Origin: Nocardioides scoriae
Lineage (GTDB): Bacteria > Actinomycetota > Actinomycetes > Propionibacteriales > Nocardioidaceae
Assembly: GCF_900104965.1 (NCBI RefSeq)
Contig: NZ_LT629757.1
Span: forward strand, 3,968,001-4,032,000
DNA length: 64,000 bases
Direction: 5' to 3'
Shown here: piece by piece, positions 4,762 to 61,105 of the stretch
Layout of the letters: every line of letters starts with the position of its first letter
How positions within the stretch are numbered: position 1 is the first letter of the stretch
Position numbers and translations under genes: made by a program
Notes under the pieces: model-generated
What the model was told of the DNA's origin: nothing
Seen by the model: the letters and a program-made list of their open reading frames with translations, nothing else
Databases searched by the model: none

Positions 4762-5262
4762 ATGGGTGCTCGGGGAGGTCGTGGACGGGATCGTGGACGG
4801 GGTCGTCGGCTCGCCGCGCTGGCGGCCGGGGTGGTGCTCGTCTCGGTGCCGGTCGCGGGCAGCGGCAGCGCCCGCGCCAGCTGTGCCGCCCCGGAGCTCG
4901 CGGTCGCGGGCGCCGGGACCGGACCGGCCGGGGTGGCCCGGGTGCCGGCCGGCGGGTCGCTGGCGGTGGCGGGGCGGGGGTTCGTCGAGGGCTGCGACGA
5001 CACCGGGGGCGCGACGACCGGGCCGGGCTGCGGCGCCCGCGAGCCCCGCGAGGTCGAGCGCCCGCGCCGCGACGTCGCGCTGGTGCTGGTGCAGGGCTCG
5101 CGGCGCTGGACCCTCGGCACCGCCGACGCGGGCACCGCGTCCGACGACCGGCTGGGTCGGGTGTCGTGGCGGGTCGAGGTGCCGGCGGCCGTCCGGCCCG
5201 GCCCGGCCCGGCTGGTCACCCGGGACGCCGAGCTCAGGGTGCGGGTCGTCGCGCCGGGGTGA
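4762..5262 (+). CDS. Small secreted protein of unknown function
   Basis: A 166-residue protein with an Arg-rich start and a hydrophobic stretch (LAALAAGVVLVSVPVAG) ending in SARASC, which looks like a Sec signal peptide cleaved near residue 34. The mature part is short, has four cysteines that could pair, and reads like one small beta-sandwich domain (PAGGSLAVAGRGF, WRVEVPAAVRPGPARL). No function is recognised. The last 29 bases overlap the 3' end of the convergent downstream gene. The frame is open far upstream, but the signal peptide supports the ATG at 4762. Confidence 0.6.
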   Translation: MGARGGRGRDRGRGRRLAALAAGVVLVSVPVAGSGSARASCAAPELAVAGAGTGPAGVARVPAGGSLAVAGRGFVEGCDDTGGATTGPGCGAREPREVERPRRDVALVLVQGSRRWTLGTADAGTASDDRLGRVSWRVEVPAAVRPGPARLVTRDAELRVRVVAPG

Positions 5263-47613: not shown

Positions 47614-48807
47614 TCACCCCAGGGGCACCCGCGTCACGGTGCCGCCGTCGGCGCACACGCTGCAGGTGGTGACGTACGCCGCGCGGCCGCGCACCGCGAC
47701 GCCGTACGGCGCCGCCAGGCCGGACGCCACGGTGCTCGGCGAGCTGGACCCCCTCGCGACCCGCACCAGCGAACCGCTCGGCAGCTCGCCCTCGGGGGTG
47801 CCGAGCAGCCCGGCGTCGGCGAGCTGCACGGCGTGCAGCCGGCCGCGGTGCCAGGTCAGGTCGGTGACGTTGGTCAGGCCGGTGGCCCAGACCGTCGGGG
47901 CCCGGCCGGGCACGACGCGGAAGACCTTGGCGCCGCCCTGCGGGAACGGGAAGCCGACGAGCTGGCTGACGAAGAACGACCCGCCGGGGCCGCGGGTCAC
48001 CGACGTCGGCACCGCCTGGGCGTCGATCGCGGGTCCGCCGAACGGGTTCGGGACGCCCGCCGTGACCGGGAAGGTCGCCACGGTGCTCACCCGGCCGACG
48101 CGGGCCCGGAGCAGGTCGTTGCCGCCGGCGTCGGACACCAGCACCCCCGAGCCGGTGCGGACCAGGCCGCCCGGGTTGCTGTCGGGGCCGGCGCCGTCGG
48201 GGTCGGTGTCCTGCTCGTGGGCGACGAGATCGGCCAGCACGAACCGGCCGCCGCCGAGGGTGCCGCCCATCACCGTGCCGAGCTGGCGCCGGGCGGGCGG
48301 GGGCAGCTGGCGCCGGAAGTCCTCGTCGCCGCCGAGCCCGATCGAGACCCGGTAGCCGCCCCGCGGCCCGACGGCCACGTCGGTCGGCCCGGTGGCCTGG
48401 TTGCCACCCTCGGCCGCGAGCGACGGCAGCCCGGTCACGACGCGGCGCTGCTTCCCGCGGGCCAGCATCGTGACCGCCCCGCTGGCGCCGTAGCAGACCT
48501 CGTCGGACTCGGCGCCGGCCACGCACGGCCCCGACCCGCCGACCCCGGACTCGGCCACGAACAGCCGACCCCGCCGGTCGAAGGAGAGCTGGCGCGGGTT
48601 GTCGAGGCCGGAGGCCACCACGCGGGTGCGCGCGGCGTCGTCGGCCGAGCCGGCCCGGGCGGCCCGACCCGCGGCGGTGGGGGCAGCGGTCGAGGCCGGC
48701 GCGGCCAGGGTGACGGCCGCGGTGGCCAGCGCCGTGCCGAGCACGGCGGTCAGGCGCAGCCGGCGGGCGGAGCGCGTGGGGCGGCGGGTGGAGGCGGGCA
48801 GGGACAT
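47614..48807 (-). CDS. ScyD/ScyE family secreted beta-propeller protein
   Basis: A 397-residue exported protein. A basic start (STRRPTRSARRLRL) and hydrophobic run (TAVLGTALATAAVTLAAPASTAAP) form a signal peptide. The mature part has repeated propeller-like blades: VVASGLDNPRQLSFDRRGRLFVAESG, TDVAVGP, NPGGLVRTGSGVLVSDAGGNDLL and GLAAPYGVAVRGRAAYVTT, as in the ScyD/ScyE family named after scytonemin clusters but common in actinobacteria as proteins of unknown role. The ATG at 48807 follows AGGAG by seven bases. It is convergent with ffh. Confidence 0.8.
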   Translation of the reverse strand: MSLPASTRRPTRSARRLRLTAVLGTALATAAVTLAAPASTAAPTAAGRAARAGSADDAARTRVVASGLDNPRQLSFDRRGRLFVAESGVGGSGPCVAGAESDEVCYGASGAVTMLARGKQRRVVTGLPSLAAEGGNQATGPTDVAVGPRGGYRVSIGLGGDEDFRRQLPPPARRQLGTVMGGTLGGGRFVLADLVAHEQDTDPDGAGPDSNPGGLVRTGSGVLVSDAGGNDLLRARVGRVSTVATFPVTAGVPNPFGGPAIDAQAVPTSVTRGPGGSFFVSQLVGFPFPQGGAKVFRVVPGRAPTVWATGLTNVTDLTWHRGRLHAVQLADAGLLGTPEGELPSGSLVRVARGSSSPSTVASGLAAPYGVAVRGRAAYVTTCSVCADGGTVTRVPLG

Positions 48808-48952
48808 CGGTGGCTCCTGGGGGTGGGCAGGTCGTCCCACACCGTGGACCCGCCATTTTCGAGACCGCAAGGCCGGTCTAGGACGCTGAATCCGCCCATA
48901 GTCGGGCCAGTGGCACCAACCGGCCCGCGGGTCGGGGCGCCGGGGCCGTCTG

Positions 48953-48993
48953 CGTGGAGCATCCCGGGCACCCGGTGCCGATCATGCTCCGCG
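48953..48993. repeat. 41-base hairpin repeat, copy 1 (overlaps the stop of the DUF559 gene)
   Basis: Outer arms CGTGGAGCAT (48953-48962) and ATGCTCCGCG (48984-48993) pair with one G-U. The 21-base centre, CCCGGGCACCCGGTGCCGATC, contains the smaller stem GGCACC/GGTGCC. Copy 2 at 50036-50076 is in the same orientation and differs at four positions. The TGA stop of the DUF559 gene (complement of 48982-48984) lies within this repeat. Confidence 0.8.
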
Positions 48994-49953
48994 CTCGACC
49001 GGGCACGACGGTCCGCACGGGACCGGTTGGCCGGCCCATCCACGGGCCTGGAGCACCTGGCCCACCGCACGGGCGGTGCGGCACGGGTCCAGCACCTGGT
49101 GCCACCCGAGCCGGAGAGTGACCGCACCGCAGACCAGGGTCGCGACGTCCCGTCGGAGGTCGCTCCACCGGTCGCGCGCGAGCTCGTGGCCCAGGCGACC
49201 GTCGAGCTCGACCACGGTGGCGTGGGCGGCGTATTCGACGTCGCGGTAGGTGGTCCGGCCCCCGACCGCGAAGCGGGTCTGGCGGCCGCCGCGGGGCAGG
49301 CCGTGGCGGCGCTCGACGTCGACCAGGTAGGTCTGCTCGAGCACCGAGTGGGACCCGGTCGCCACGTCTCCCAGGAGCTGGGTGACCAGGGCGCGCCGGC
49401 GCATCCGGGAACGCCGCGCCAGGGCCGCCAGGAGCCGGGGCGCAGTGGTGCGTCGGCTGGCGACCGCGTCGGTGAGCACCGCCACGGCCGCGGCGTCGGA
49501 CGTGGCGTGCGCGGCCAGGTCGAGCACGACCGGCTCGAGCCGCAGGCGCGGTGGCGACAGGTGGGACAGGACCTCCTGGTCGAAGCGAGCCAGGCGCACC
49601 ACGACGATGCCGCGGCCGGGTCGCAGCCGTCGCTCCCGATCAACGGCCAGGTGGACGACGGCGTCCTCGACACCCGGCCCGCCCTCGCGCCCCGTCCGCA
49701 CCCCGTGGTGACGCAGGGCCGACCAGCCGGCCAGCGCGGCAGGAGCATGGTGGAGCACGGCAGCCCACTCCCGCTGGACCTGGGTCGGCGGACCGGTGTG
49801 CGCGACGTAGGTGCCGGGGTGCACCCGCGCCCACCGCCGCTGTCGCAGCATCCGCGCGACGTCGTCGTCGTCACCTCCTGCCGCGAGCACCTGCCTGCGC
49901 GAGACGACCTGCTCCTGGCGGGCGAGGAACCTGGCCACTGCCTGCTCGTCCAT
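48982..49953 (-). CDS. AbiEi-like winged-helix plus DUF559 (Vsr-like endonuclease fold) protein
   Basis: A 323-residue two-domain protein. Residues 1-85 resemble the AbiEi antitoxin N-terminal winged helix (VVSRRQVLAAGGDDDDVARM, RVHPGTYVAH). Residues 205-300 resemble DUF559: SVLEQTYLVDVERRHGLP, YRDVEYAAHATVVELDGRLGH and RDVATLVCGAVTLRLGWHQVL, with acidic residues placed as in PD-(D/E)xK nucleases related to Vsr. No AbiEii toxin gene is adjacent, so a classical toxin-antitoxin pair is unlikely. The gene stands between two direct hairpin repeats. Nuclease activity and role are inferred. Confidence 0.72.
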   Translation of the reverse strand: MDEQAVARFLARQEQVVSRRQVLAAGGDDDDVARMLRQRRWARVHPGTYVAHTGPPTQVQREWAAVLHHAPAALAGWSALRHHGVRTGREGGPGVEDAVVHLAVDRERRLRPGRGIVVVRLARFDQEVLSHLSPPRLRLEPVVLDLAAHATSDAAAVAVLTDAVASRRTTAPRLLAALARRSRMRRRALVTQLLGDVATGSHSVLEQTYLVDVERRHGLPRGGRQTRFAVGGRTTYRDVEYAAHATVVELDGRLGHELARDRWSDLRRDVATLVCGAVTLRLGWHQVLDPCRTARAVGQVLQARGWAGQPVPCGPSCPVERGA

Positions 49954-50035
49954 CCTCGGAGCCTCGTGGACCTGGGGCGCCGGGGCCAGGTCGTGGTTGG
50001 GGCCTGTGGACGAGGTGGGGCCGGTCCGACTTCGT

Positions 50036-50076
50036 CGTGGAGCATCCCGGGTACCTGCTGCCGATCATGCTCCACG
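50036..50076. repeat. 41-base hairpin repeat, copy 2 (upstream of the DUF559 gene)
   Basis: Perfect outer arms CGTGGAGCAT (50036-50045) and ATGCTCCACG (50067-50076) surround CCCGGGTACCTGCTGCCGATC minus nothing in length: the centre is 21 bases, as in copy 1. It lies 83 bases before the DUF559 start in that gene's orientation and 74 bases before the divergent amidohydrolase. Confidence 0.8.
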
Positions 50077-50136
50077 GACCGGCGCGGACCGGCTCGGCCC
50101 GGGCGGCGGGAGCGGGATGCCCGGGAGGACCCGCGG

Positions 50137-50149: not shown

Positions 50150-51223
50150 ATGGCAGCGCAGCGATTCGCCGGACCGGTGCTCCCCGACGGCGAGACGAGG
50201 GACCTGTACGTCGTCGACGGTCGGGTCACCTACGAGAAGCAGGCCGGCGCGGAGACCGTCGCCAGCGGGTGGATCGTGCCGGGCCTGGTGGACGCCCACT
50301 GCCACCTCGGCCTCGACGACGACGGCGCGGTCAGCGACGCGGCGACCGAGGAGCAGGCGATCCTCGACCGCGACGGCGGCGCGCTGCTCATCCGCGACTG
50401 CGGCTCGGCGGCCGACACCGCCTGGGTCCACGAGCGCGAGGACCTGCCCCGGCTGATCCGGGCCGGGCGCCACATCGCGCGGACCAGGCGCTACATCCGG
50501 GGCTACGCCCACGAGGTCGAGCCGGACCAGCTGTCGGCGTACGTCGCCCAGGAGGCGCAGCGCGGCGACGGGTGGGTGAAGCTGGTCGGGGACTGGATCT
50601 CGCGCGACGCCGGTGACCTGACCCCGTCGTTCAGCCCCGAGGACTTCGCCGAGGCCATCCGCACCGCCCACGAGCACGGCGCCAAGGTGACGGCGCACTG
50701 CTTCGGCACCGACGTGCTCCCGGGCCTGATCGCCGCGGGCATCGACTGCCTCGAGCACGGCACCGGCCTCACGCCCGAGCTGATCGACTCGATGGTCGCG
50801 GGCTCGGTGGCGCTGGTGCCGACGGTGATGCAGCTGGAGAAGTTCCCGGAGTACGCCGAGGCGGGCGCGGCCAAGTTCCCGGCGTACGCCGAGACGATGA
50901 CCGACCTGCACGCCCGTCGCCGCGAGACGCTGATGAACGCCCACGAGGCCGGCGTGCAGCTGTACGCCGGGTCCGACGGCGGCGGGGTCGCCCGCCACGG
51001 CAACCTGGCCGGCGAGGTCGTCGCGCTGCACGAGCTCGGCCTGAGCACCGAGGCGGCGCTGGGGGCGGCGTCGTGGCGGGCCCGGGAGTGGCTGGGCCTG
51101 GACGGCCGCCTCTCGGAGGGCAGCAGCGCCGACTTCGTGGTGTACGACGCCGACCCGCTCGCCGACCTCGGCGTGCTCCACCGCCCCGCCGTCGTCGTGC
51201 TGCGTGGACGCGTCGTCGCCTGA
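50150..51223 (+). CDS. Amidohydrolase family protein
   Basis: A 357-residue metal-dependent hydrolase of the imidazolonepropionase/prolidase-like amidohydrolase group. The metal motif VDAHCHLGLDDDG is at about residues 45-57; TAHCFG near 186 and LEHGTGLT near 205 give the other histidines, and AGSDGGG near 280 the catalytic Asp. The composite beta-sandwich has its C-terminal strand LEGSSADFVVYDADPL-type end (here LSEGSSADFVVYDAD). Substrate unknown. The stop overlaps the next gene by 20 bases. Confidence 0.85.
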   Translation: MAAQRFAGPVLPDGETRDLYVVDGRVTYEKQAGAETVASGWIVPGLVDAHCHLGLDDDGAVSDAATEEQAILDRDGGALLIRDCGSAADTAWVHEREDLPRLIRAGRHIARTRRYIRGYAHEVEPDQLSAYVAQEAQRGDGWVKLVGDWISRDAGDLTPSFSPEDFAEAIRTAHEHGAKVTAHCFGTDVLPGLIAAGIDCLEHGTGLTPELIDSMVAGSVALVPTVMQLEKFPEYAEAGAAKFPAYAETMTDLHARRRETLMNAHEAGVQLYAGSDGGGVARHGNLAGEVVALHELGLSTEAALGAASWRAREWLGLDGRLSEGSSADFVVYDADPLADLGVLHRPAVVVLRGRVVA

Positions 51224-60873: not shown

Positions 60874-61105
60874 GGACTCATTAAACGACATCCCGCACCA
60901 TAATGGTGACAAACGGACATCTGGACTCGATCGGATGGTGGTTCCCGCCCGCCGCCACGGCGACCGCTCTCGGCACGCCCGGCTTCCGAGACCCGTCTCG
61001 CGGCCCCGACTGGTCGTGCGTCCACAGACGGACCTCGGCGACTGGTTCTCCACAGGAGCGTGCCAGGTGTTCTCGCCCGTGGTCGCCTGGAGGTGGGATC
61101 GGCCC

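Follow-up and report, generated by a model that had tools for sequence, protein, structure and literature searches.

REP palindromes associate with RAYT transposases, Vsr-like nuclease folds act in repair and defence, and proteobacterial DUF559 genes may adjoin CGTC REPs. REP-like palindromes are a long-standing puzzle: the CGTC REPs, a large class of dispersed palindromes with an unpaired CGTC tag that occurs in Proteobacteria and four other phyla, have no known transposase, and a dedicated one has been reported to be lacking (PMC3733652). A different kind of palindrome recognition is found in AbiE type IV toxin–antitoxin systems. Streptococcus AbiEi and Rv2827c each bind their own promoter, at a pair of 23-bp inverted repeats; the two repeats bound by AbiEi are 3 bp apart and span about 49 bp in total, and the two AbiEi proteins tested did not bind each other's repeats (PMC7319586).

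The locus described here lies in the window, i.e. the whole 64,000-nt stretch of Nocardioides scoriae DNA that was analysed, and comprises one gene bracketed by two palindromes. Its features, in window coordinates, are as follows:

48915–50131 (approximate), stretch lacking at the orthologous empty sites in two sister genomes (G002 and G009)
48953–48993, plus strand, palindrome copy 1, the downstream end of the unit, overlapping the stop codon of the nuclease gene
48982–49953, minus strand, CDS of 323 aa, predicted to encode an AbiEi-type DNA-binding module and a Vsr/EDxHD-type (DUF559-like) nuclease domain
49033–49365, minus strand, residues 197–307, predicted Vsr/EDxHD nuclease fold (3hrl, Z 12.0; I-Bth0305I, Z 11.6; Vsr, Z 10.5)
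49360–49953, minus strand, residues 1–198, predicted AbiEi antitoxin fold with an N-terminal winged helix (6y8q, Z 12.1 over 182 residues)
50004–50013, minus strand, TCGTCCACAG, a TCCACAG (DnaA-box-like) motif just inside the upstream palindrome
50036–50076, plus strand, palindrome copy 2, the upstream end of the unit, 83–123 nt before the start codon

The unit resembles the REP/RAYT systems, including REPINs, in that a single gene is flanked by palindromes and in that, among its relatives at ~30% identity, which form at least two groups (B and C; the window gene represents group A), the same palindrome is dispersed in the genome and gene and palindrome types co-vary. RAYTs are, however, HUH tyrosine transposases, whereas the window protein combines AbiEi- and Vsr/EDxHD-type parts; moreover, the window's group is without dispersed copies, and the palindromes are 39–51 nt rather than 20–40 nt in length. 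As judged from the predicted fold and from the Pfam matches of the family (AbiEi_4, DUF559, and REase_MTES_1575), no Y1 HUH tyrosine transposase is encoded, and because this defining enzyme is absent, the units are not members of the REP-RAYT class, although they may be similar in their working. The CGTC-tagged REPs are likewise dispersed palindromes, and the arms of the group B palindromes read (CG)TCATACG, but here the CGTC is base-paired, the hosts belong to the Actinomycetota, and there is a candidate for the partner gene.

IS200/IS605 elements likewise consist of roughly one ORF and a hairpin close to either end, the hairpins mostly sharing one orientation, and, like the window unit, they have subterminal hairpins at both ends and no pair of terminal inverted repeats. 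The enzyme fold is, however, unrelated: TnpA (the Y1 transposase) is absent here, and neither multi-copy identical elements nor a defined target site was seen. Residues 1–198 of the window protein have the predicted AbiEi fold with its winged helix, and the paired inverted repeats to which AbiEi binds have a comparable total length, but in contrast to AbiE systems, AbiEii is absent beside the window gene, a nuclease domain is fused C-terminally, a second palindrome is located at the 3′ end, and dispersed copies occur in relatives. I-Bth0305I (EDxHD), Vsr, and DUF559 proteins (NGO0050, 3hrl) share the nuclease fold and conserved acidic and histidine residues, whereas here the domain is fused to AbiEi and bracketed by palindromes and has no intron or intein host.

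The palindrome pair and the gene at the window locus

The two palindromes are 41 nt each, are identical at 37 of the 41 positions, and have the same orientation, with a single ORF (48982–49953, minus strand, 323 aa) between them, just as an earlier sequence-only reading of this DNA had described. Copy 2 has a perfect outer stem of 10 bp (CGTGGAGCAT/ATGCTCCACG), and the outer stem of copy 1 contains one T.G mismatch (ATGCTCCGCG). The second inner stem that had been proposed for copy 1 is present (GGCAC/GTGCC), and the stop codon of the gene (48982–48984) does fall inside this copy. Copy 2 contains the GGAGCATGA string without any gene ending there. The window palindrome, which was inspected for a GTAG/CGTC foot tag, starts with CGTGGAGC. 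The fold z-scores of the two copies (–2.2 and –1.2) are unimpressive on thermodynamics alone; a match of this kind was obtained in none of 100 shuffles of the window, which places the pair beyond chance. With up to three mismatches allowed, the 41-nt palindrome has two copies in the whole genome (G000, 4.06 Mb), both at this locus; 293 further family genomes contain no copy. Elsewhere in the window, TTCTCCACAG occurs at positions 61046–61055, just 5′ of an apparent yraN–comM pair, with one mismatch and at a frequency within chance for the window.

The neighbours of the gene are a minus-strand ORF without a Pfam match (47614–48870) and a plus-strand amidohydrolase gene (50150–51223), and no AbiEii toxin (nucleotidyltransferase) gene was found among these two neighbours by Pfam. 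The window protein scored under the cut-off against Pfam AbiEi_4, gave no match to PF04480, and matched the PADLOC AbiEi models with an E value of 2e-5; among 25 relatives, Pfam matches to AbiEi_4, DUF559, and REase_MTES_1575 were found in 14, 12, and 6, respectively. The PF04480 profile search of the control genomes yielded matches only in Caulobacter and Corynebacterium. An AlphaFold2 model was built from 73 sequences (mean pLDDT 92.9), in which residues 1–198 also match Rv2827c (1zel, Z 8.1) and the nuclease part (approximately residues 197–307) matches TnsA more weakly (Z 7.5). Five acidic or histidine residues (E206, D238, E249, D251, and H256) are invariant across the 73 sequences, as are R215, Q225, and R268. 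In this model, the window protein appears to consist of an AbiEi DNA-binding module joined to a nuclease of the Vsr/EDxHD type, and the DUF559/AbiEi-like nuclease label given earlier gains the backing of predicted structure for both of its halves, despite the weak Pfam matches.

Recurrence at homologous loci and presence or absence as a block

A protein search of 24 genomes of the genus yielded 29 places with homology, including five in the genome of the window itself, and most of these loci contain a near-identical palindrome pair whose sequence is different at each locus. Bracketing was then scored in 80 named loci from Nocardioides, Marmoricola, Mumia, Mycolicibacterium/Mycobacterium, and Gordonia, a set selected by similarity to the window protein, using the local alignment score between the upstream and downstream flanks and, as controls, windows taken from these loci with identical geometry. 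Scores of at least 40 and at least 34 were obtained at 50 and 54 of the 80 loci, respectively, whereas the 450 control windows never exceeded 39; at one of the 50 high-scoring loci (L081), the matching flanks are not palindromic. In the window's genus, 17 of 25 loci exceed the control maximum. When strict, orientation-neutral criteria were applied, palindromes were present on both sides of the gene at 54 of 101 loci, compared with 3 of 286 control windows. The bracketing is real and is no local accident. Approximately 40% of the homologues are without a clear pair at the thresholds used, and in some of these the palindromes have diverged.

The geometry of the unit was compared at 68 loci, a set in which two pairs represent the same locus present in two collections. 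The palindromes are mostly 39–51 nt in length and are separated by 0.99–1.19 kb from centre to centre; the upstream palindrome typically precedes the start codon by 60–150 nt, and the downstream one is situated around the stop codon. Among 46 related pairs, 30 are direct, 10 are inverted, and 6 are ambiguous, and direct orientation is therefore a tendency rather than a rule. The median palindrome identity is 0.885 within a locus and 0.64 between loci, and palindrome similarity rises slowly with protein similarity (Mantel rho 0.26 in group A, p 0.001). Judged by sequence, the palindrome of each locus is private to that locus, and for this reason the absence of the 41-mer elsewhere is the wrong test. 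The search of the genome and its relatives that had been suggested for the repeat thus returned the exact 41-mer at this locus only, but most homologous loci have palindromes of their own; similarly, the view that a repeat absent elsewhere indicates a local duplication holds literally for the exact sequence but is contradicted by the survey of homologues. At one locus (L011, G023:C1:3371716), the palindromes are continued, on either side of the gene, by CTTCGACAGGCTCAGGGGTCGAC repeats in tandem.

A TCCACAG motif, often in the form TTATCCACAGG or TTGTCCACAGG, is located just inside the upstream palindrome at most loci. It was found within 60 nt at 50 of the 68 loci and in 23 of 6,631 control windows (p about 1e-92), and outside the downstream palindrome it was found at none of the 68. 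In group B, TCCACAG is present at 28 of 30 loci (within 210 nt upstream) compared with 1 of 299 controls and is often doubled, with the two copies about 27–28 nt apart. The motif, which resembles a DnaA box in sequence, is a third part of the unit.

The loci are found in many different genomic contexts, and both neighbours are common to only a minority of locus pairs. No near-identical copies of the unit, which would point to recent transposition, were seen inside one genome. Comparison with sister genomes does reveal the unit as a block. In G002 and G009, whose amidohydrolase is 86–87% identical to that of the window, the counterparts of the two genes that flank the window unit lie next to each other, separated by ~33 unrelated nt in which there is no palindrome. 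At a second locus (L018 of G009), the gene and its palindromes are absent from the orthologous sites in G002 and G001, and the flanks of the site in G002 are 89% identical. Because sister genomes at two loci are without the gene and both palindromes, the unit behaves as one block. The change is block-wise, and two cases are compatible with insertion as well as with loss; the empty sites are only about 87–90% similar, and the exact insertion junctions are consequently unreadable. An empty site keeping one repeat, which the sequence-only reading had proposed to look for, was not found, the two empty sites examined being without either palindrome. The site in the window's own genome that is orthologous to the L018 insertion site (L137, G000 near 2885684–2886660) contains other palindromic repeats, with GACGGTCGCCAGGGCGACC and GGTCCCTGAGGAGGGCC strings.

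Dispersed palindromes in groups B and C

Group B genes are bracketed by GTCATACG-N24-CGTATGAC palindromes, which are sometimes arranged in tandem at ~52-nt spacing. This palindrome is present in 31 copies in the window's own genome and in 32, 33, 42, and 54 copies in others, whereas none or one was found in more than half of the genus genomes searched; genus genomes with a group B gene contain 15–54 copies, and a reversed-pattern control gave 0 throughout the genus genomes. Among 294 genomes of the family, at least four group B palindromes were found in 61 of 100 gene carriers and in 16 of 194 non-carriers (Fisher p 7e-22). In 10,000 label shuffles within genera, the mean was 33 and the maximum was 47, compared with the observed 61 (p 1e-4); this association is stratified by genus and is not tree-based. 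The 16 genomes with at least four palindromes and no detected group B gene may contain remnants of the unit, missed homologues, or incomplete assemblies. Five genomes (G022, G035, G056, G003, and G013) possess 8–25 group B palindromes and no group B gene at E ≤ 1e-30.

The stem sequence varies among genomes, and the palindromes adjoining the gene predict the dispersed type. In G212, the palindromes at the gene are of the GTCCTGCC type, and there are 38 dispersed copies of the GTCCTGCC type and 0 of the GTCATACG type. In G163 and G187, where GTCATGGC is found at the gene, the GTCATGGC type is present in 21 and 23 copies, respectively. G095 contains two group B genes (including L226, G095:C24:231500–235500), one flanked by the GTCATACG type and the other by the GTCATGGC type; dispersed copies of both are found in this genome (17 and 21, respectively). 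In most of the other 27 genomes tested, the counts of the palindrome types are at the control level. The group C palindrome (GTCGTG...CACGAC) is dispersed too, and the window's genome contains about 14 clear copies of it. The dispersed copies of groups B and C constitute evidence, at the level of sequence, for a matched specificity of gene and palindrome. In a comparison of the dispersed palindromes of G002 and G009, two were shared and one intergenic stretch was scrambled, and no clean insertion was seen. For group A, to which the window gene belongs, bracketing was found and dispersal was not; because its own palindrome has no dispersed copies, bracketing alone is demonstrated for the window member. 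One group A locus (L095) has a solitary group B palindrome at position 4924, ~1.7 kb downstream of the gene.

A candidate gene-plus-palindrome unit and its alternatives

The anatomy of the locus, its recurrence, its block-wise presence and absence, and the dispersed copies that match the palindromes of their genes are reasonably likely to reflect a gene-plus-palindrome unit, in which the AbiEi half binds a private palindrome and the nuclease acts there, thereby maintaining or spreading the unit. The window locus would be one member of a family of such small (~1.1 kb) units. Its AbiEi half may recognize the private palindrome as two half-sites; that this half reads the palindrome is the simplest reading, because the palindromes are of the size of the AbiEi repeats and are private to each locus. 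The Vsr/EDxHD half would act at or near the palindrome, whose two copies would mark the ends of the unit. We infer binding of the palindrome, cutting by the nuclease, and movement; the unit would be gained and lost as a block and would have colonized many intergenic sites, and in groups B and C the palindrome would in addition have been copied to tens of further places. The gene would thus act toward its palindromes as RAYT acts toward REPs, with an unrelated enzyme. The small nuclease-and-palindrome cassette suggested by the sequence-only reading accordingly survives as a unit, in that it recurs at unrelated sites and comes and goes as a block, and its amplifying character is borne out in the sister subfamilies but not for the window's palindrome.

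It is also conceivable, although unlikely, that the palindromes serve only as autoregulatory operators of the AbiEi-type repressor domain, the upstream copy repressing the gene and the downstream copy limiting antisense or read-through transcription, while the nuclease serves defence or repair elsewhere. Each of Streptococcus AbiEi and Rv2827c binds the paired repeats of its own promoter and does not cross-bind (PMC7319586), and the position of the upstream palindromes, ~60–150 nt before the start codon and followed by the TCCACAG motif, would suit an operator. This reading is at odds with the presence, at the majority of loci, of a second copy ~1.05 kb distant and around the stop codon, with the dispersed palindromes of groups B and C, which number in the tens and match the gene's own type, and with the window gene having no adjoining AbiEii toxin gene. 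Autoregulation alone is insufficient because of the fused nuclease, the far-end copy, the block-wise presence, and the dispersed, type-matched copies. We regard as still less probable a free-standing homing or defence nuclease that cuts alleles or incoming DNA without the unit, the palindromes being protected or immune sites or repair anchors. The nuclease domain does match I-Bth0305I (Z 11.6) and Vsr (Z 10.5), and empty alleles are present in sister species, but the dispersed palindromes would be left unexplained; the units occupy many different sites, and thus no common empty-site target is evident.

Two simpler explanations concern the local arrangement of the repeats. Hairpins flanking one gene, with an exact sequence that is found nowhere else in the genome, could represent two transcription terminators or a duplication confined to this locus; this is very improbable, since most homologous loci, in contrast to the control windows, have a pair of this kind with a private sequence, one of the two copies precedes the gene, and the hairpins have no T-run. 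The survey of homologues contradicts both variants. The collapse of a tandem gene array to one copy, leaving two repeat boundaries, had been proposed in view of the GGAGCATGA string in copy 2, where no gene ends. Among the homologous loci examined, however, there are no tandem gene copies with intervening repeats, and the sister sites have kept neither the gene nor the palindromes, so that this proposal goes unsupported and hardly merits credence.

With regard to the gene-plus-palindrome unit itself, no report of the association was found in the literature searched, from which subscription papers and most preprints were out of reach. The window locus looks like a member of a class of gene-palindrome units that has gone unreported and that resembles REP-RAYT in its working. 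More tentatively, it may possibly represent a new selfish or mobile unit, in which an AbiEi-guided, Vsr-type nuclease, i.e. an enzyme unrelated to known transposases, addresses a private palindrome, with gene and palindrome pairs diversifying side by side in one genome; such genes could be the missing partner of some REP-like palindromes. A common and poorly understood actinobacterial family, matched by AbiEi antitoxin and DUF559 models, is accompanied by palindromes of its own. Should the pairing prove functional, the family would provide a large natural set of orthogonal protein–palindrome pairs, a candidate route for the spread of palindromes without RAYT, and grounds for re-annotating genes that now resemble toxin–antitoxin or defence genes in databases.

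Two further DUF559 genes were inspected for flanking repeats. No flanking pair was found at one of them (L202). The other, a more distant DUF559 gene in the window's genome (L200, G000:C1:709294), has a near-direct pair of ~90 nt with GACGCGCGGACAC...GTGTCCGCGCGTC arms.
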